DNA of 58,126 nt from Acidimicrobiia bacterium (GTDB lineage Bacteria > Actinomycetota > Acidimicrobiia > Acidimicrobiales > Aldehydirespiratoraceae). Under the pieces are notes generated by a model that saw nothing but the letters and a program-made list of their open reading frames with translations, had not been told where the DNA came from and ran no database searches. Location of the stretch: contig JAGWAO010000008.1 in NCBI GenBank assembly GCA_021296315.1, forward strand, positions 1 through 58,126, given 5' to 3'. Below, piece by piece: positions 31,196 to 40,518 of the stretch. Position 1 is the first letter of the stretch, and the number at the start of each line of letters is the position of its first letter. The position numbers and the translations under genes are program-made.

Positions 31196-32077
31196 GTGAA
31201 CCGCAACCCGATCATCACCTGCGCGGTGACCGGTGCGGGCGATACCGCGGGCAAGCACCCCGATCTGCCGATCACGCCCACCCAGATCGCGACGGCCGCC
31301 CTGGAGGCGGCCGATGCCGGTGCGGCCATCGTGCACATCCACGTGCGCGATCCGGCCACCGGCAAGGGTGCCCGGGACGTGGACCTGTACCGCCAGGCAT
31401 TGCAGCAGGTGAGGGCGGCCAACCCCGACGTGATCATCAACACCACCGCGGGCATGGGCGGCGACCTGCTGATCGGCGATCCCAACCCGTTCGACTTCGG
31501 GTCCGAGGGCACCGACCTGGTCAGCGGCCTGGAGCGCCTCGCCCATGTGGAGGCCCTGCGGCCCGACATGTGCAGCATCGACTGCGGCACGCTCAACTTC
31601 GGCGAGGGCCACCAGGTGTACGTGAGCACCCCGAACATGATCCGCGACATGGCCAAGCGGGTGCGGGAACTCGGAGTCAAGCCCGAGCTCGAGATCTTCG
31701 ACACCGGCCACCTGTGGCTGGCCAGCACCCTCGTGGACGAGGGCCTGGTCGCCGATCCGCCCTGGATCCAGCTGTGCACCGGCATCCCCTACGGCATGCC
31801 CAACGATGTGGGCCTGCTCGCCGCGCTGACCCGCCTGCTTCCCGCCGGCGCCGAGTTCACCACCTTCGCGCTGTCGGCCCAGCAGGTCCCGTGGGTGGCC
31901 CAGGCCATGCTGCTCGGCGGCCACATCAGAGTCGGCCTGGAGGACAACCTGTACCTGGCCCGCGGCGTTTTTGCCTCCAATGCCGATCTCGTGAATCGGG
32001 CGCGAGAGGTAGTGGAGGCAATGGGGGGCAGAATTCAGTCCCCGGACCAGGCGCGTGACACGCTGTCACTAGGCTGA
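31196..32077 (+). CDS. Beta-keto acid cleavage enzyme (BKACE, DUF849)
   Basis: A 293-residue BKACE-family TIM-barrel enzyme; members split a beta-keto acid with acetyl-CoA into a CoA ester and acetoacetate. Zinc ligands are in VHIHVRDP; MCSIDCGTLNFG, ELEIFDTGHLW and HIRVGLEDNLYL are family hallmarks. I start at GTG 31196, fitting the N-terminus NRNPIITCAVTGAG; GTG 31193 is equally possible. Some BKACEs cleave 3-dehydrocarnitine to glycine betaine, which would feed the neighbouring demethylation genes, but no sequence feature proves this substrate. Followed 39 bases later by the formate dehydrogenase genes. Confidence 0.88.
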   Translation: MNRNPIITCAVTGAGDTAGKHPDLPITPTQIATAALEAADAGAAIVHIHVRDPATGKGARDVDLYRQALQQVRAANPDVIINTTAGMGGDLLIGDPNPFDFGSEGTDLVSGLERLAHVEALRPDMCSIDCGTLNFGEGHQVYVSTPNMIRDMAKRVRELGVKPELEIFDTGHLWLASTLVDEGLVADPPWIQLCTGIPYGMPNDVGLLAALTRLLPAGAEFTTFALSAQQVPWVAQAMLLGGHIRVGLEDNLYLARGVFASNADLVNRAREVVEAMGGRIQSPDQARDTLSLG

Positions 32078-32116
32078 GGTCCGGGCCGAGCGCTGATAGC
32101 AGGAGGGAAGGGGCAG

Positions 32117-34027
32117 ATGGGCGGAAAGTCCTACGACAAGCGGCTGCCGCGGCTGATCACTCCGATGGTGCGCGACAACGGGCGGCTGCGTCCCGCCACC
32201 TGGGACGAGGCCCTCGACCGGGCCGCCGACGGGTTCCGGGCCGTGCTCGACCGCCACGGGCCGGACGGCTTCGGCATGTTCAGCTGTTCCAAGGCCACCA
32301 ACGAGATGAACTACGCCGCCCAGAAGTTCATCCGCACGGCCATAGGGTCGAACAACATCGACTCCTGCAACCGAACTTGACACGCTCCCTCCGTCGTCGG
32401 TCTGGCGACAGTGTTCGGAGCGGACACCGAGGTCGAGCAGGCCGACGTCATCCTGCTGTGGGGCTCCAACGCCCGTGAGGCCCACCCGATCTTCTTCCAC
32501 CACGTCCTCGAGGGGCTCGCCAACGGCGCCCGCATGTACGCCATCGACCCCCGCCGCACCTCGTCGGCCAAGTTCGCCGACCGCTGGCTGGGGCTGTCGG
32601 TGGGCACCGACATCGCGCTGGCCAACGCCATGGGGCGCGAGATCATCGCGGCCGGGCTGCACAACCCCGACTTCATCGCCCGTTCCACCCAGGGTTTCGA
32701 GGCCTACGCGGCCCATGTCGAGTCGTACACCCTCGGCTGGGCCGCCGAACAGACCGGCGTGCCGGCCGAGGCCATCCGCGACATGGCCCACGCCTACGCC
32801 ACCGCACCCAAGGCCCAGATCCTGTGGACCCTGGGCATCACCGAGCACCACAACGCGGTCGACAACGTGGTGTCGCTCTGCAACCTGGCCCTGCTCACCG
32901 GCCATGTGGGCCGGTGGGGCTCGGGACTGTGCCCCCTGCGGGGCCAGAACAACGTGCAGGGCGGCGGCGACATGGGCGCCATACCCAACAAGTTCCCCGG
33001 CTTCCAGGACGTGGCCGACGACGAGGTGAGAGCCAAGTTCGAGGCCGCCTACGGCACCGAGCTCAACGGCGTGCCCGGCAAGCACCTGACGCTGATGTTC
33101 GAGGCCATGGAGGCCGGCGAGCTGCGGGCCTGCTACGTGATCGGCGAGAACCCGGCCGACTCCGAGGCCGACGTCGAGCACGCCCGCAAGCTGCTGGCCG
33201 GACTGGACATCCTGGTCGTGCAGGACATCTTCATGACCCGCACCGCCGAGATGGCCGACGTGGTGCTGCCCGCCTCGGTGGCATGGGCCGAGTCCGAGGG
33301 CACGGTCACCTCCAGCGAGCGACGGGTGCAGCGGGTCCGTCCCGCGGTGCCGCCGCCGGGCCAGGCCCGCCACGACATCGACATCATCGGCGAGATGGCC
33401 CGCCGCCTCGGCGTCGACTGGGGCCATCCCAGCTCCCGGGAGCTGTGGGACGAGATGCGGTCGATGTCGCCCATGCACGCCGGCATGTCCTGGGAGCGCC
33501 TGGAGGCCTCCGGCGGGCTCCAGTGGCCCTGCGGCAGCGAGGACGACCCGGGCTCGGAGTTCCTCCACGGCTGGCTGTGGGCCGACGACCTGGAGGGCCA
33601 CGATCCGGCGCCGTTCAGCATCACCCACCACGCCCCGCCCAAGGAGGAGCTCAGCGACGAGTTCCCGCTGCGGCTCACCACCGGCCGGGCGCTCGACTCC
33701 TACAACACCGGGGTGCAGTCGGGCGGCTACGCCTCCCCCATCCGCTACGGCGACGCCATCGACGTCAACCCGGCCGACGCGGCCGAGCTCGGCGTGGCCG
33801 ACGGGGAGCGGGTGCTGGTCAGCTCGCCCCGGGGATCGGTGGAGATGGACGTCCGCCTGCAGCCTGACATACCCACCGGTCTCACCTTCACTACGTTCCA
33901 TTTCCCAGAGCTGGTGGACGCCAACGTGTTGACCAACGACGAGTGGGACCCCCGCTCGGGTACGGCAGAGTTCAAGGCGGCCGCCATCCGCATCTCCAAG
34001 CTCGAGCCGGAACCCGCCCCCGCCTAG
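32117..34027 (+). CDS. fdhA: Formate dehydrogenase catalytic subunit, Sec-containing, lacking the N-terminal FeS domain
   Basis: One gene of 636 residues interrupted by an in-frame TGA at 32378-32380, read as selenocysteine 88: DSCNRT-U-HAPSVVGLATVFG continues the family active site exactly. Sec ligates molybdenum/tungsten in the bis-pterin cofactor and oxidises formate to CO2. Other blocks are VILLWGSNAREAHP, GQNNVQGGGDMGA, RTAEMADVVLPAS and a C-terminal cofactor domain (LRLTTGRALDSYN). The usual first domain with the CxxCxxxC [4Fe-4S] site is absent: the protein starts at the linker LPRLITPMVRDNGRLRPATWDEAL. That domain is the C-terminus of the gene at 35939. Start ATG 32117 follows AAGGGG. 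A SECIS-like hairpin lies directly after the TGA. Confidence 0.9.
32378..32422 (+). promoter_or_regulatory. UGA(Sec) codon with bacterial SECIS-like hairpin
   Basis: TGA at 32378-32380 is followed by a stem CGCTCC (32383-32388) / GGAGCG (32417-32422) and an apical stem GTCG (32393-32396) / CGAC (32406-32409) closing the loop TCGGTCTGG. The loop contains GGTCTG, like the SelB-binding loop of E. coli fdhF, at a similar distance from the UGA. The decoding genes selA-D are not in the window. Confidence 0.75.
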
Positions 34028-34048
34028 CGAATGACCGACGTACCCACA

Positions 34049-34097
34049 GGAATTGGCAGCCGAGGGTGCCGAGAACGGAGCGGACGGCTGCCAGTCC
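34049..34097. repeat. Palindromic repeat family 2, copy 2
   Basis: GGAATTGGCAGC (34049-34060) and GCTGCCAGTCC (34087-34097) with the central CCG-AGAA-CGG mini-stem. First of a tandem pair between fdhA and fdhB. Confidence 0.8.
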
Positions 34098-34121
34098 GGT
34101 TGTGTGTCCTTCGTGCTGCGG

Positions 34122-34169
34122 GGATTGGCAGCGGAGGATGCCGAAAGCGGAGTCGACGGCTGCCAGTTC
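34122..34169. repeat. Palindromic repeat family 2, copy 3
   Basis: GGATTGGCAGC (34122-34132) and GCTGCCAGTTC (34159-34169), centre CCG-AAAG-CGG. Nearly the same as copy 2 along its whole length, so the pair arose by duplication or repeated insertion. Ends 6 bases before the fdhB ATG. Confidence 0.8.
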
Positions 34170-34175
34170 GATGAT

Positions 34176-35942
34176 ATGACCGATATCTATCTGGGCGCGG
34201 ACCGCGCCACTGAGCCCGAAGTGGCCGCGGTCGATGCCGCGCTGGGGGCTCGGGGCGTCGATCCGGTGGTGCGTCCCGAGACCGAGAGGCTGTACACGTC
34301 GGGAAGGTCCAGGCGCCGGGAGCGCCGCCACTTCCTGCTGCCCGCGCTGCACGCCCTCCAGAACGCGGCCGGCTGGATCAGCCCGGGTGGCATCAACTAC
34401 GTGGCCGAGGTGCTGGACGTGCCCCCGGCCGAGGCCTTCGGCGTGGCCACCTTCTACGACCTGTTCCGCACCGAGCCGCCCGACCACGAAGGCGACACCT
34501 TCCATGTGTGCGTCGACGCGGCCTGCCAGATCGCGGGGTACGACGACCTGGCCGCCTCGGTGCGGGCGTCGGGCGGCCATGTGCACCTGGGGCCGTGCCT
34601 GGGCCAGTGCGAGCGGGCCCCCGCGCTGTTCGTGCAGGGGTCCGGGGGTCGTCGCGACTACGTGCCCGCCGACGACGAGCCCTTCGAGTTGCCCCAGGCC
34701 GGCGAAGAGTCGCTGCGCCTGCTGCGCCGGATCGGCGTGGCCGACCCCTCCTCGCTGGAGTCCTACCTAGCCCACGGCGGCTACCAGGCGCTGCGCCGGG
34801 CGGGCGAGATGGGCGCGGAGGCCGTCCTGGAGGCGGTGGCCGCCTCGGGGCTGTCGGGACGGGGCGGAGCCGCCTTCCCGACAGGGATCAAGTGGCGGGC
34901 CGTGGCCGCCGAGACCGGGCGGCCCAAGCATGTGGTGGCCAACTGCGACGAGTCCGAGCCGGGCACGTTCAAGGACCGCATCGTCATGGAACAAGACCCG
35001 TTCGCGGTGATCGAGACCATGGCCATCGCCGGGCTGGCCACCGGCGCGGCCAACGGCTGGATCTACATCCGGGGCGAGTACCCGCTGGCCACCGCCCGCC
35101 TTCAGGACGCCATCGACGCGGCCCGGGCCGCGGGGCTGCTAGGCCCGGACGCGGCCGGCACCGGCCACGACTTCGACATCGCCATCTGGCGGGGGGCGGG
35201 CGCCTACATCTGCGGCGAGGAGACCGCGCTGTTCAACTCGCTGGAGGGATTCCGGGGAGAGCCCCGCAACAAGCCGCCGTTCCCCACCACCCACGGCCTG
35301 TTCGGCGAGCCCACCGCCATCAACAACCCCGAGACGCTGCTCAACGTCGGTGACATCATCCTCGAGGGCCCCGACGCCTACCGGAGCCGGGGGACCGAGC
35401 GGTCGCCGGGAACCAAGCTGCTGTGCCTGTCGGGCAAGGTCGGGCGCCCCGGCCTCTACGAGGTGCCGTTCGGCACGAGCCTGGGCGACCTCCTGGACCT
35501 CGCGGGCGGGGTCGCCGGCAACGGCGAGCTTCAGGCCGTGCTGATGGGCGGCGCGGCCGGATCGTTCGTGGGCCCCGACTCGCTCAGCCTGCCGCTCACG
35601 CTGGAGGACACCCGGGCCGCGGGCACCACCCTCGGCTCGGGAGTGGTGATGGCCTTCGACACGTCGGACGACATGACCGCCGTGGTAGTGCGCATCGCCG
35701 AGTTCTTCCGGAACGAGTCGTGCGGGCAGTGCGTGCCGTGCCGGGTCGGTGCGGTACGACAGCACGAGACGCTGGTGCAGATGCAGAGGCGGGGTTCGCT
35801 GTCGCCCGCCCGCCGGACCCTCATCGATGAGATGGCCGAAGTGATGGTGGACGCCTCCATCTGCGGTCTGGGCCACACCGCGGCGTCAGCTGTCCGCTCC
35901 GCGCTGGACCTGGGCCTGATAGCGTCAGCGCCTTCCCGATGA
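34176..35942 (+). CDS. fdhB: Formate dehydrogenase NADH-binding subunit, NuoE-NuoF fusion
   Basis: A 588-residue fusion of a NuoE-like [2Fe-2S] domain (about 1-170; cysteines in HVCVDAACQ and GPCLGQCERAP) with a NuoF-like domain (about 190-588) that binds FMN and NAD (GRGGAAFPTGIKW, GAGAYICGEETAL) and a [4Fe-4S] cluster (SCGQCVPCRVG and ICGLGH). It passes electrons from the Mo subunit to NAD+, as in soluble NAD-dependent formate dehydrogenases. I start at ATG 34176: upstream residues are encoded by the two palindromic repeats. The stop overlaps the next gene (ATGA). Confidence 0.93.
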   Translation: MTDIYLGADRATEPEVAAVDAALGARGVDPVVRPETERLYTSGRSRRRERRHFLLPALHALQNAAGWISPGGINYVAEVLDVPPAEAFGVATFYDLFRTEPPDHEGDTFHVCVDAACQIAGYDDLAASVRASGGHVHLGPCLGQCERAPALFVQGSGGRRDYVPADDEPFELPQAGEESLRLLRRIGVADPSSLESYLAHGGYQALRRAGEMGAEAVLEAVAASGLSGRGGAAFPTGIKWRAVAAETGRPKHVVANCDESEPGTFKDRIVMEQDPFAVIETMAIAGLATGAANGWIYIRGEYPLATARLQDAIDAARAAGLLGPDAAGTGHDFDIAIWRGAGAYICGEETALFNSLEGFRGEPRNKPPFPTTHGLFGEPTAINNPETLLNVGDIILEGPDAYRSRGTERSPGTKLLCLSGKVGRPGLYEVPFGTSLGDLLDLAGGVAGNGELQAVLMGGAAGSFVGPDSLSLPLTLEDTRAAGTTLGSGVVMAFDTSDDMTAVVVRIAEFFRNESCGQCVPCRVGAVRQHETLVQMQRRGSLSPARRTLIDEMAEVMVDASICGLGHTAASAVRSALDLGLIASAPSR

Positions 35943-36799
35943 CCGATACGACCATCACCGAGACCGCGGTCACGATCACCATCGACGGGCAGCCTGTGGA
36001 GGTGGCCGAGGGATCCACCATCCATGCTGCCTGCGTTGAGGCCGGCATCGACACCCCGACCCTGTGCTGGGCCGAGAACCTCACCCCGGTCAACGTCTGC
36101 CGGGTGTGCGTGGTCGAGCTGGAGGGATCCAGGGCGCTGGTGCCGTCGTGCTCCCGGCCCGCCGAGGAGGGCATGGTCGTGCAGACCGACACCCCCCGGG
36201 TGCGCCACAGCCGCCGGATGGTGCTCGAGTTCCTGGGCTCGGGCGTCGACCTCAGCCAGGCCGACGACCTGCACCACTGGATCAAGGCCTACGGCGCCGA
36301 CCCCGACCGCTACGGCACCGACGGCCATCCCGTGGAGCGGGTGGAGGAGCCGGTCAAGGTCCAGGACGAGCTCTACATCCGGGACTACTCCAAGTGCGTG
36401 CTGTGCTACAAGTGCGTGGAGGCCTGCGGCGACGACGCCCAGCACACCTTCGCCATCGCGGTGGCCGGCCGGGGCTTCGACGCCCGGATCTCCACCGAGT
36501 TCGACGTGACCCTGCCCGACTCGGCCTGCGTGTACTGCGGCAACTGCGTGGGCGTGTGCCCCACCGGCGCGCTCCAGTTCAAGACCGAGTACGACCTGCG
36601 CGAGGTGGGGGAGTGGCGCCCGGACGACCAGACCGTGACCCGCACGGTGTGCTCCTACTGCGGCGTGGGCTGCAACCTCGACCTGCACGTGCAGGACGAG
36701 CGCATCGTGAAGGTCACCTCGCCGGCCGACCATTCGGTGACCAGCGGCCACCTCTGCATCAAGGGCCGCTTCGGCTGGCAGTACGTCCACGGAGAGTGA
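35939..36799 (+). CDS. Formate dehydrogenase FeS subunit = N-terminal part of FdhA as a separate gene
   Basis: 286 residues holding iron-sulfur sites that normally form the N-terminus of NAD-type FdhA: a [2Fe-2S] domain (Cys43, 54, 57, 71), two [4Fe-4S] ferredoxin motifs (Cys153/156/159/163 and Cys197/200/203/207), and at the C-terminus the molybdopterin-oxidoreductase [4Fe-4S] domain (Cys238, 241, 245, 273; CSYCGVGCNLDLH, then GHLCIKGRFGWQYVH). The protein ends exactly where the catalytic gene at 32117 begins in the alignment. The His/Cys3 cluster motif usual between the [2Fe-2S] and ferredoxin parts is missing (no cysteine from 72 to 152). ATGA overlap with fdhB. Confidence 0.88.
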   Translation: MTDTTITETAVTITIDGQPVEVAEGSTIHAACVEAGIDTPTLCWAENLTPVNVCRVCVVELEGSRALVPSCSRPAEEGMVVQTDTPRVRHSRRMVLEFLGSGVDLSQADDLHHWIKAYGADPDRYGTDGHPVERVEEPVKVQDELYIRDYSKCVLCYKCVEACGDDAQHTFAIAVAGRGFDARISTEFDVTLPDSACVYCGNCVGVCPTGALQFKTEYDLREVGEWRPDDQTVTRTVCSYCGVGCNLDLHVQDERIVKVTSPADHSVTSGHLCIKGRFGWQYVHGE

Positions 36800-36834
36800 G
36801 CCCGATCCCGGCAACGACGGACCGCCGCCAGTGA
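36796..36834 (+). CDS. 12-codon relay ORF
   Basis: GTG start inside the stop of the FeS-subunit gene (GTGA, 36796-36799), encodes MSPIPATTDRRQ, and its TGA overlaps the GTG start of the hydratase gene (GTGA, 36831-36834). Confidence 0.35.
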   Translation: MSPIPATTDRRQ

Positions 36835-37634
36835 CGGGATCGCCTGAGTCTGCCGCCCTTGAGGCCGCGGCCGAGCGGCTGCGGACTGCTTTGGTCGATG
36901 GCGTGGCCTGCGAGCCCGTGCGCGGGCTGCTGGGCACCTCCGCCGGTCCTGCGGCCGGCTACGCGGTGCAGCAGCTGAACACCGGGCACTGGCTCGCCGC
37001 GGGCCGGCGGATCAGCGGGCACAAGGTGGGACTGACCAACCCGGCCGTCCAGGCGCAGCTCGGCATGGACGAGCCCATCTGGGGGGTGCTGTTCGCCGAC
37101 AGGTGCCGCACCGACGGCGACGATCTCAGTGGGGCTGCGCTGATCGAGCCGCGGCTGGAGGTCGAGGTGGCAGTGGTGCTGGGGGCCGACCTCGACAGGG
37201 GCCGCCACACGGTCGTGGACGTGATCGGCGCCACGGCCTACGTGCTGCCCGCGCTGGAGATCGTCGACAGCCGCATTGTGGGCTGGGACATCACCATCGC
37301 CGACATGATCGCCGACAACGCCGGCGCCGGCTTCTACGTGCTGGGAACCCGCCCGGTGCCCCTGACCGCCGTCGACCTGCGCCGGGTGGAGATGCGACTC
37401 ACCGTCAACGGCAAGGAGGCTGCGACCGGCTCCGGGGCGGCGTGTCTGGGCAACCCGTTGAACTCCGTGCTGTGGCTGGCCGACGCCATGTGCGACCTCG
37501 GCACCCCGCTGCAAGCCGGCGAGTGCGTCATGACCGGCTCACTGTGCGGGATGCTGCCGTTGTCCCCCGGCGATGAGCCATGCGCCGAGATCGACGGCGT
37601 CGGCACGGTGTCGGCGAGTCTGTCCCCTGCCTGA
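36831..37634 (+). CDS. 2-keto-4-pentenoate hydratase-like protein (MhpD/FAH superfamily)
   Basis: A 267-residue member of the fumarylacetoacetate-hydrolase superfamily close to MhpD-type 2-oxopent-4-enoate hydratases and 4-oxalocrotonate decarboxylases. Metal ligands are in PRLEVEVAVVL, with GHKVGLTNPAVQAQLG near residue 62 and PALEIVDSRIVGWD. Adds water to a 2-hydroxydienoate in aromatic meta-cleavage routes. The start GTG overlaps the relay ORF from the formate dehydrogenase operon, yet I see no other meta-cleavage gene here, so its true substrate and the reason for its position are unclear. Confidence 0.85.
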   Translation: MTGSPESAALEAAAERLRTALVDGVACEPVRGLLGTSAGPAAGYAVQQLNTGHWLAAGRRISGHKVGLTNPAVQAQLGMDEPIWGVLFADRCRTDGDDLSGAALIEPRLEVEVAVVLGADLDRGRHTVVDVIGATAYVLPALEIVDSRIVGWDITIADMIADNAGAGFYVLGTRPVPLTAVDLRRVEMRLTVNGKEAATGSGAACLGNPLNSVLWLADAMCDLGTPLQAGECVMTGSLCGMLPLSPGDEPCAEIDGVGTVSASLSPA

Positions 37635-37650: not shown

Positions 37651-38544
37651 TCAACCAGACGTGTCTGGGCTTGAGGCAGGGGCTCTCGGCCCACCGTCGC
37701 CCCTTGCTGCTGCGGCGGCGGCCACGGCGCGGCGGCGCAGGTGGACCGTCCAGTCGGCCAGTCCCACGATGACGCCGCCGACGATGTTGCCCAGCGTGAC
37801 CGCCACGAGATTCTGAGCGATCCCGGCTAGGTCCAGCCGGCTCACGTCGGCGGCCGTCAGCCCCGCGGCCGCCAGGGCGTCGGCATCGGCCGCGACCAGC
37901 GCCCCGAAGGGCAGGAAGAACATGTTGGCGACAGAGTGCTCGAATCCGCCCGCGACGAACGCCGTGACCGGCAGGGACACTGCCAGCAGCTTGTCGGTGA
38001 CCGTGCGCCCCGCGGTTGCCATCCACACGCCCAGGCACACCAGCATGTTGGCCACGATGCCCCGCAGGAAGGCGATCTCGAACGGAAGGTCCACCTTGCC
38101 GTTGGCCGACGTCACCGAGAAGACCGAGAACGAGTGGTCACCCTGCTCCCACCAGCGGCCGTAGAAGACCAGCAGCACAATGACGAGGGCGCCGATCAGG
38201 TTGCCCACGTAGACCAGCGCCCAGTTGCGGGCCAGCTCCCGCGGCAGGATCGTGCGGCTGAGGACGCTCATCACCATGAGGTTGTTGCCGGTGAACAGCT
38301 CGGCGCCGGTGACCACCACGAAGAAGAGGCCCATCGTCAGTCCCAGCCCCATGATGAGCCGGGTCGGTCCGGTGCCCAGCGTCGACTGAGCCGCGATCGT
38401 GCTCGTGAGCATTGCGCCGAGCGCAACGAACGCGCCGGCCATCACCGCCAGCACGAGCGTGGACGCCATGATGGCTCGGGCCTTGCCGACACCGGCCCGC
38501 ACCAGCTGTACGGAGATCTCTTCCGGCGGCGGCGTGGCGGTCAT
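37651..38544 (-). CDS. Formate/nitrite transporter family channel
   Basis: A 297-residue membrane protein with about six hydrophobic helices, of the FocA/FdhC/NirC family of pentameric anion channels. The helix with TGAELFTGNNLMVMSVL and the central-histidine motif GGFEHSVANMFFLPFGAL are conserved; this His gates and protonates formate in FocA. I start at ATG 38544; the GTG at 38571 would overlap the previous gene. Placed 3' to 3' with the formate dehydrogenase operon, so formate is the likely anion, though nitrite cannot be excluded. A C-terminal Ala/Pro-rich tail is probably cytosolic. Confidence 0.9.
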   Translation of the reverse strand: MTATPPPEEISVQLVRAGVGKARAIMASTLVLAVMAGAFVALGAMLTSTIAAQSTLGTGPTRLIMGLGLTMGLFFVVVTGAELFTGNNLMVMSVLSRTILPRELARNWALVYVGNLIGALVIVLLVFYGRWWEQGDHSFSVFSVTSANGKVDLPFEIAFLRGIVANMLVCLGVWMATAGRTVTDKLLAVSLPVTAFVAGGFEHSVANMFFLPFGALVAADADALAAAGLTAADVSRLDLAGIAQNLVAVTLGNIVGGVIVGLADWTVHLRRRAVAAAAAARGDGGPRAPASSPDTSG

Positions 38545-38557
38545 GGATCCTGGGTCC

Positions 38558-39196
38558 TTAGGTGGCGCCACCTGCGAGCCACATCTCTATGTCGTGGATC
38601 GCTTGGGACGTGGCCTGGCCTATCAGATCAAGCTTGCGCACCTGGTCTATGCGGGCTCGGGCCTTGCCATAGTCGCCCTTGGGCAACAGTTCCGGCAGGA
38701 TTCCGCAGGCGTCAGCCAGGCCGATGATGACGATGTCGCGCGGGCCGGGGATGTCGTCGCTGAGCAGCACTCCCAGGATGCGCAGTTTCACCTCGCGCTC
38801 CGCCTTGCCGTCGATGATCGGGTAGCGCCGGGAGCGGAACACCCAGAGGAAGCGCCCCTCGTGGCGCTCCAAGATGCCCCGCTCGGCCAGGCGTGACAGC
38901 GCCTCCTCCCGGATCTCCGCGGCCCGTCGGGCCGTCTGACCCACCCAGTACCGGGCGTCGCGCTGCTGGCCGGCCGCGATCGCTGCCAGTGTCGGGTCCA
39001 GGATGCTGTCGCCGACGGGCGTCGGGTCGATGAGGATGAGGTGCTCCGGGTCGGTGTCGATGCGGTTCTCCAGCGCGAGGTCCATGAGCACGCCGCCCGC
39101 GAGCGCATTGTCCAGCGCGATGCCTGGCACCGCCACGAACTTGCCGCCCTCGTCCCGCAGCAGGAGAAGGAGGATCTCCTCGGCGAATCTCAACAA
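38558..39196 (-). CDS. GPP34 (GOLPH3-like) family protein
   Basis: About 212 residues of the GPP34 family: FAEEILLLLLRDEGGKF at the N-terminus, then GVLMDLALENRID and ADACGILPELL. Eukaryotic members bind phosphoinositides at the Golgi; bacterial ones are common in actinomycetes with no settled role, perhaps in cell differentiation or lipid binding. Start is a TTG at 39196 or 39193 after AGGAGA; the longer TTG at 39214 would contain the ribosome site. Ends 13 bases before the formate channel gene, so the two are probably co-transcribed. Confidence 0.85.
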   Translation of the reverse strand: MLRFAEEILLLLLRDEGGKFVAVPGIALDNALAGGVLMDLALENRIDTDPEHLILIDPTPVGDSILDPTLAAIAAGQQRDARYWVGQTARRAAEIREEALSRLAERGILERHEGRFLWVFRSRRYPIIDGKAEREVKLRILGVLLSDDIPGPRDIVIIGLADACGILPELLPKGDYGKARARIDQVRKLDLIGQATSQAIHDIEMWLAGGAT

Positions 39197-40468: not shown

Positions 40469-40518
40469 GGGAATTGGCAGCCCAGGGCTCCCAATTGGGC
40501 GCCGACCGCTGCCAATTC
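40469..40518. repeat. Palindromic repeat family 2, copy 4
   Basis: Perfect arms GAATTGGCAGC (40471-40481) and GCTGCCAATTC (40508-40518) with an inner CCCAATTGGG palindrome. Lies between two minus-strand genes. Confidence 0.82.

Follow-up and report, generated by a model that had tools for sequence, protein, structure and literature searches.

Organization of the Locus

The window, i.e., the whole stretch of DNA analyzed here, comprises 58,126 nucleotides of a metagenome-assembled genome (MAG; 83 contigs, 86% complete) from an Acidimicrobiia bacterium. It contains three genes on one strand (Table 1), encoding the catalytic domains of the formate dehydrogenase (FDH) subunit FdhA (C-part, 636 amino acids), a NuoE-NuoF fusion (NuoEF or EF, 588 amino acids), and the iron-sulfur (Fe-S) domains of FdhA (N-part, 286 amino acids). 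The order C-part, NuoEF, N-part is permuted relative to single-chain FdhA.

Table 1. Features of the locus, with positions in the window
Feature	Position	Strand	Basis or remark
Shine-Dalgarno sequence AGGAGG of the C-part, 10 nt before ATG 32117	32101..32106	+	sequence reading
C-part: catalytic domains of FdhA (bis-MGD-binding; residue 88 is Sec), without Fe-S domain	32117..34027	+	PF00384 12-429, PF01568 518-622
TGA taken as selenocysteine, codon 88 of the C-part	32378..32380	+	PF00384 match continues across
Putative SECIS apical hairpin GUCGUC-GGUCU-GGCGAC	32393..32409	+	conserved GGTCT motif
NuoE-NuoF fusion (FMN/NAD domain, NuoF [4Fe-4S], NuoE-type [2Fe-2S])	34176..35942	+	PF01257, PF01512, PF10531, PF10589
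ATGA overlap of NuoEF stop and N-part start	35939..35942	+	4 nt
N-part: HoxU/NuoG-like [2Fe-2S] and two [4Fe-4S] domains, plus Mo-proximal Fe4S4 domain	35939..36799	+	PF13510, Fer4 models, PF04879
Fe4S4 domain (cluster A1, Lys275), in FdhA normally at the head of the catalytic part	36632..36790	+	PF04879 residues 232-284; TIGR01591 profile 1-49
Formate/nitrite (FNT-family) transporter, context only	37651..38571	-	PF01226

Under translation table 11 the C-part is called as two open reading frames (ORFs), and a single gene is obtained only when the in-frame TGA is read. For NuoEF we preferred the ATG at 34176 over that at 34053; homology with relatives starts at residue 42 of the ORF that begins at 34053. 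The 4-nt overlap between NuoEF and the N-part is possible in 79 of 109 distinct loci with the split arrangement, suggesting that translation of the two may be coupled. The gap between the C-part and NuoEF is 149 nt in the window, as against a median of 0 over 108 loci. Two copies of a palindromic repeat, TTGGCAGC-N26-GCTGCCA, sit between the C-part stop and the NuoEF start; the repeat occurs in the window at 34053-34093, 34125-34165, and 40474-40515, and has 44 exact matches (34 places) in the genome, compared with none for a reversed control.

FdhA Is Divided between Two Genes

Three alignments place the cut in FdhA at the same junction. Against the NCBIfam Fdh-alpha profile TIGR01591, residues 236-284 of the N-part cover positions 1-49 and residues 9-626 of the C-part cover positions 50-672. 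Against single-chain R. capsulatus FdsA (6tg9_A, 958 amino acids), residues 11-283 of the N-part align with 25-303 and residues 7-627 of the C-part with 303-932. Among the Pfam domains, PF04879 (Fe4S4) was found in the N-part only (residues 232-284), and PF00384 and PF01568 in the C-part only. Because the two products tile both the profile and FdsA in this way, they jointly amount to one complete FdhA, cut just past the Fe4S4 domain. An earlier note on this DNA had claimed that FdhA is split over two genes whose order is permuted, with the Fe4S4 domain fused to a ferredoxin-like part downstream of NuoEF; the alignments bear this out, and the coordinates that it gave for the two halves are right. 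What is described below on the selenocysteine codon, the absence of an A4-type cluster, and the wide conservation goes beyond what it claimed.

On its own, the C-part scores 607 bits with TIGR01591, as against a cut-off of 666, the first 49 profile positions lying on the other gene. It keeps the Sec88-His89 pair (Sec or Cys, then His) that is typical of the class in Fdh-alpha catalytic domains, and HoxU-like Fe-S domains and a NuoE/NuoF diaphorase are both present at the locus; unlike in the FdsABG/MeFDH1 class, the proximal [4Fe-4S] domain is not on the catalytic chain. No intact FdhA N-terminal domain on a catalytic part was found in the assembly (86% complete), where the next-best match to the C-part was 27% identical. 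We rejected stop readthrough from the N-part into the C-part, given that the C-part is located upstream of NuoEF and that the N-part ends in TGA, TAG, or TAA in different loci. A fold search with an AlphaFold model of the C-part (pLDDT 72.5) gave FdhF as the top match (TM 0.46, rmsd 12), a likeness at the level of family only, and the corresponding model of the N-part was poor (pLDDT 55) and unusable.

A Selenocysteine Codon in the Catalytic Part

The residues around the in-frame TGA read NIDSCNRT-TGA-HAPS, and the PF00384 match spans the codon; we therefore marked it as selenocysteine. For this position, split loci gave 94 distinct contexts, 90 with TGA and four with a Cys codon. The motif GGTCT lies at exactly +21 from the TGA in all 90 Sec contexts and in none of the four Cys contexts, and one pair of the putative SECIS stem, C-G in 82 of the former, is reversed to G-C in the other 8. 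The GGUCU loop is presumably the same as that of the E. coli fdhF SECIS. The hairpin appears in predicted folds, yet the energy of these folds is no better than that of shuffled sequences, and an Rfam scan of 32000-37000 returned a single irrelevant match and nothing relevant at the SECIS. Elsewhere in the genome, SelA and SelB are encoded side by side on one contig (C25), FdhD is encoded, and a tRNA-Sec gives a borderline score (48.5 bits, cut-off 47). The features by which a bacterial selenoprotein is recognized, i.e., an in-frame TGA with a SECIS, SelA, SelB, and tRNA-Sec, were all found, the last barely above its cut-off.

Two Cys members (L193 and L194) nest inside the split group on a tree of catalytic parts, from which two others (L195 and L196) were left off as near-copies; because of this nesting, Sec has most likely been replaced by Cys there.

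Just past the SECIS (32417-32440), the C-part in the window lacks six residues (18 nt) of a GGGTxSY loop that is present in all 112 other split C-parts, including one (L139) with 94% identity. This gap near the active site could be a natural deletion or an assembly error, so that the copy in the window could be impaired or misassembled.

The Fe-S Ligands Lie on the N-Part

In the passages of the report on the R. capsulatus enzyme (RcFDH) available to us, electrons pass through A1, A2, A3, A5, B6, and FMN, and cluster A4 (His117, Cys121, Cys124, and Cys130) is off this path, at the dimer interface (PMC7171172). All 16 Cys ligands of the on-pathway clusters of FdhA are on the N-part. None of the 110 distinct split N-parts has lost a ligand of the [2Fe-2S] cluster, A3, or A2; the A1 ligands, together with Lys275, are kept in 109, the remaining one being cut off before its last four Cys. 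With every Fe-S ligand of the undivided FdhA located on the N-part, the catalytic subunit is left with the molybdopterin and Sec and has no Fe-S domain.

A motif of the A4 type (His/Cys3; census pattern: H, 1-4 residues, C..C, 4-6 residues, C) was found in none of the 110 distinct split N-parts, as compared with 14 of 17 fused ones. Among the three fused N-parts without the pattern, one (L217) has four Cys in that region and may hold an A4 cluster with other spacing. Of 20 N-parts from regions without a C-part, one has the motif; we take it to be that of a fused gene cut by its contig (L210). No A4 motif was seen in Azospirillum FdhA either. A search of the genome for FdsD gave no match, the control genomes being silent as well.

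Two further features of these proteins were noted. An extra Cys at residue 32 of the N-part (36032-36034) occurs in 104 of 110 split N-parts, where all 17 fused ones have Ala. Two Cys-containing FdhAs (L213 and L214) with the gene order N-C-EF have extra sequence at the junction where the split group is cut, and no A4 motif.

The Split Is Widespread in Actinomycetota

We examined 159 regions containing an N-part, 147 of them distinct by DNA, some contigs being present twice. The order C-EF-N was found in 120 regions (110 of the 147 distinct ones). Of these, 119 were classified by script; the other is L134, in which the C-part is overlapped by the match to NuoEF. Because regions were chosen by their N-part match, such counts are not frequencies of architectures. 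This recurrence in relatives, where the split forms an inherited group and no simple rearrangement artefact was seen, means that the split is due neither to chance nor to an assembly error. The N-part directly precedes the C-part in 17 regions. The other 22 have no C-part in the region: 17 are cut by contig ends, one is the cut fused gene (L210), one is L114, and in three (L054, L065, and L066) the C-part was found about 7-11 kb away from EF-N, so that the halves need not be neighbors. In L114 (3351-4184), a split-type N-part has other ORFs but no match to NuoEF or the C-part in the 3.3 kb upstream, possibly as a result of misassembly.

A split-type N-part was detected in at least 41 of the 148 genomes from the order (in some as a fragment at a contig end), and a split-type C-part in 41; both occur in 39, i.e., in 39 of the 43 with either among the matches listed. 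In three of the four genomes with one part (G094, G145, and G017) it is at a contig edge, the fourth being G106. Across 396 genomes of the phylum, 41 from 13 families had an N-part match at E ≤1e-75; wider regions were taken for 28 of these, and in 26 the C-part is upstream of NuoEF, the other two (L186 and L201) ending at a contig edge. A scan of named genomes gave at least 511 relatives, of which 80 were kept, all MAGs; most are titled Acidimicrobiia, Acidimicrobiales, or Acidimicrobiaceae, and Ilumatobacter and Candidatus Microthrix are included. In a plasmid collection, the best 25 of 1575 records for the C-part reach 42% identity and the best 25 of 340 for the N-part 38%, all records being below 60%. 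Open frames of about 350-420 amino acids that match the N-part at about 40% identity look like further splits, a reading that was rejected: those fetched (L207, L208, L209, L211, L215, L217, and L225) are fused Sec-containing FdhAs whose frame ends at the TGA.

On the tree of 88 catalytic parts, made by a quick method with a midpoint root, all 68 split rows are on the same side of a branch whose SH-aLRT support is 100, with a stem of length 1.4, and 20 rows are fused. Its rows had been cut from 133 by dropping near-copies (≥88% identity), partial matches, and L134 (two stops). Long branches lead to L216 and L255, and the place of L255 as sister to the split group may be false, due to long branches meeting. 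Among ORF clusters near the operon, FdhD was found at 8 of 67 loci and formate-tetrahydrofolate (THF) ligase at 8 of 67, one representative of each being confirmed by Pfam.

A Probable Three-Subunit Formate Dehydrogenase

Taken together, the sequences point, with a probability of about 85%, to a cytoplasmic three-subunit, NAD-linked FDH whose proximal [4Fe-4S] cluster would be on another polypeptide than the catalytic part. From the tiling, the conserved ligands, the NuoEF overlap, and the co-occurrence of the parts we infer that the N and C chains bind each other, together restoring the fold of single-chain FdsA; the conserved ligands and Lys275, with the co-occurrence, are most naturally read as a [4Fe-4S] cluster supplied in trans. 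The C subunit would bind Mo (or W) bis-MGD and, by means of Sec88, oxidize formate to CO2. Electrons would then cross the subunit boundary to A1 on the N subunit and pass through its A2, A3, and [2Fe-2S] clusters to the NuoF [4Fe-4S] cluster and FMN of EF, and on to NAD+; in this scheme the choice of metal, the direction of the reaction, and the role of NAD are inferred. Since the A4 dimer-interface cluster is missing, a single C-EF-N protomer like that of MeFDH1 is predicted, rather than a dimer like that of R. capsulatus FdsABGD.

It is unlikely that EF and the N-part instead form a free-standing NADH oxidoreductase module serving several enzymes, with a vestigial Fe4S4 domain and a C-part that uses another partner. 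HoxU-type parts are indeed shared by hydrogenases, complex I, and FDHs. Three genomes of a single genus (G056, G098, and G130) have EF-N separated from the C-part by about 7 to 11 kb, and EF-N adjoins Rieske-type genes in L054, L065, and L066, with CoxM-like genes in L054 and L065 and also CoxS and CoxL in L054 (names from translations). However, no uncut split N-part has lost the A1 ligands or Lys275, and the 20 N-parts from regions lacking a C-part, the three with a distant C-part included, all have them as well; the N-part and C-part also accompany each other in nearly all genomes with either.

Metal-dependent FDHs are reversible, and the sequence itself gives no direction, so that the enzyme might be mainly an NADH-driven CO2 reductase, or act on another substrate. 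We hold this to be quite unlikely, given the FNT-family transporter in the window and the FdhD and formate-THF ligase genes beside some relatives, all of which fit formate oxidation. It is also countered by Actinomycetospora chiangmaiensis, the strain of a probable relative (see below), in which, according to the parts of the report available to us, removal of formate needs selenium, FDH1 being also a candidate for it (PMC7176365).

An assembly error, frameshift, or decayed gene might be suspected in an incomplete MAG of many contigs, with an in-frame TGA and a six-residue gap confined to the window's copy, but is very improbable: the C-EF-N order recurs in regions from many assemblies, the N-part stops vary, a conserved motif follows the TGA, and the C-part has its own Shine-Dalgarno sequence. 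For the split itself this explanation is refuted, although the missing 18 nt in this copy may yet reflect an error.

What is normally one long chain appears here as two, cut between the metal site and the Fe-S wire, and this is common to many actinobacteria. The split enzymes likely represent a group of molybdopterin oxidoreductases with a cluster-free catalytic subunit, in which the whole wire, including the pterin-adjacent cluster and the conserved lysine, would be on a separate subunit and the redox center would meet its first acceptor only at an interface. If so, it is possible for the first electron transfer out of a molybdopterin site to be relocated to the interface between proteins and to persist there across a phylum; the enzyme would be an FDH already divided in two by nature, useful for combining catalytic and wiring modules, and the split group a natural test of the purpose of cluster A4. 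A practical warning is that a standard gene call yields two truncated ORFs and a stray ferredoxin-like gene for this selenoenzyme.

Comparison with Known Systems

We found no description of such a split of FdhA in the literature searched, which included parts of PMC7176365, PMC7171172, PMC10869683, PMC10478512, and PMC13397495 and reviews among the literature covered, and one may exist. The comparisons with published enzymes below draw on the passages of each paper available to us. FdsABGD of R. capsulatus (6tg9) has the same catalytic fold as the split enzyme, in which the path A1-A2-A3-A5-B6-FMN can be kept, but differs in its one-chain FdsA, separate NuoE- and NuoF-like subunits, FdsD, and cluster A4 (PMC7171172). 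MeFDH1 of Methylobacterium extorquens (7vw6), which consists of one alpha-beta pair, resembles the split enzyme in its merged NuoE-NuoF-like beta subunit and in lacking a dimer-interface cluster, but has a one-chain alpha subunit and Cys instead of Sec (PMC10869683).

A haloarchaeal FDH (Halarchaeum plasmid, L255; gene order NuoF-like, N, FdhF) likewise has a separate HoxU-like gene, between the NuoF-like gene and FdhF. It is cut one domain earlier, however: its FdhF keeps its own Fe4S4 motif, and the His/Cys3 motif is present. HoxU of the NAD-reducing hydrogenase (5xf9_B, 242 residues) resembles the N-part as a small Fe-S subunit of its own that accompanies a NuoF-like diaphorase, but matches the N-part only to residue 229, without the molybdopterin Fe4S4 domain.

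The closest case in the literature may be in A. chiangmaiensis, for which three Sec-containing FDHs are reported (PMC7176365). One of them, the cytoplasmic, Sec-containing FDH3 of strain DSM 45062 (FdhA3/FdhB3/FdhC3), has subunits of 640, 614, and 316 amino acids, close to the sizes of the C-part, NuoEF, and the N-part. A split alpha subunit is not mentioned for FDH3 in the passages of that report available to us. All three subunits were detected by proteomics and were 3.1, 2.8, and 2.2 times up on 2-HIBA (PMC7176365). Judged by subunit sizes, subunit naming, and phylum alone, FDH3 is a probable member of the split group.
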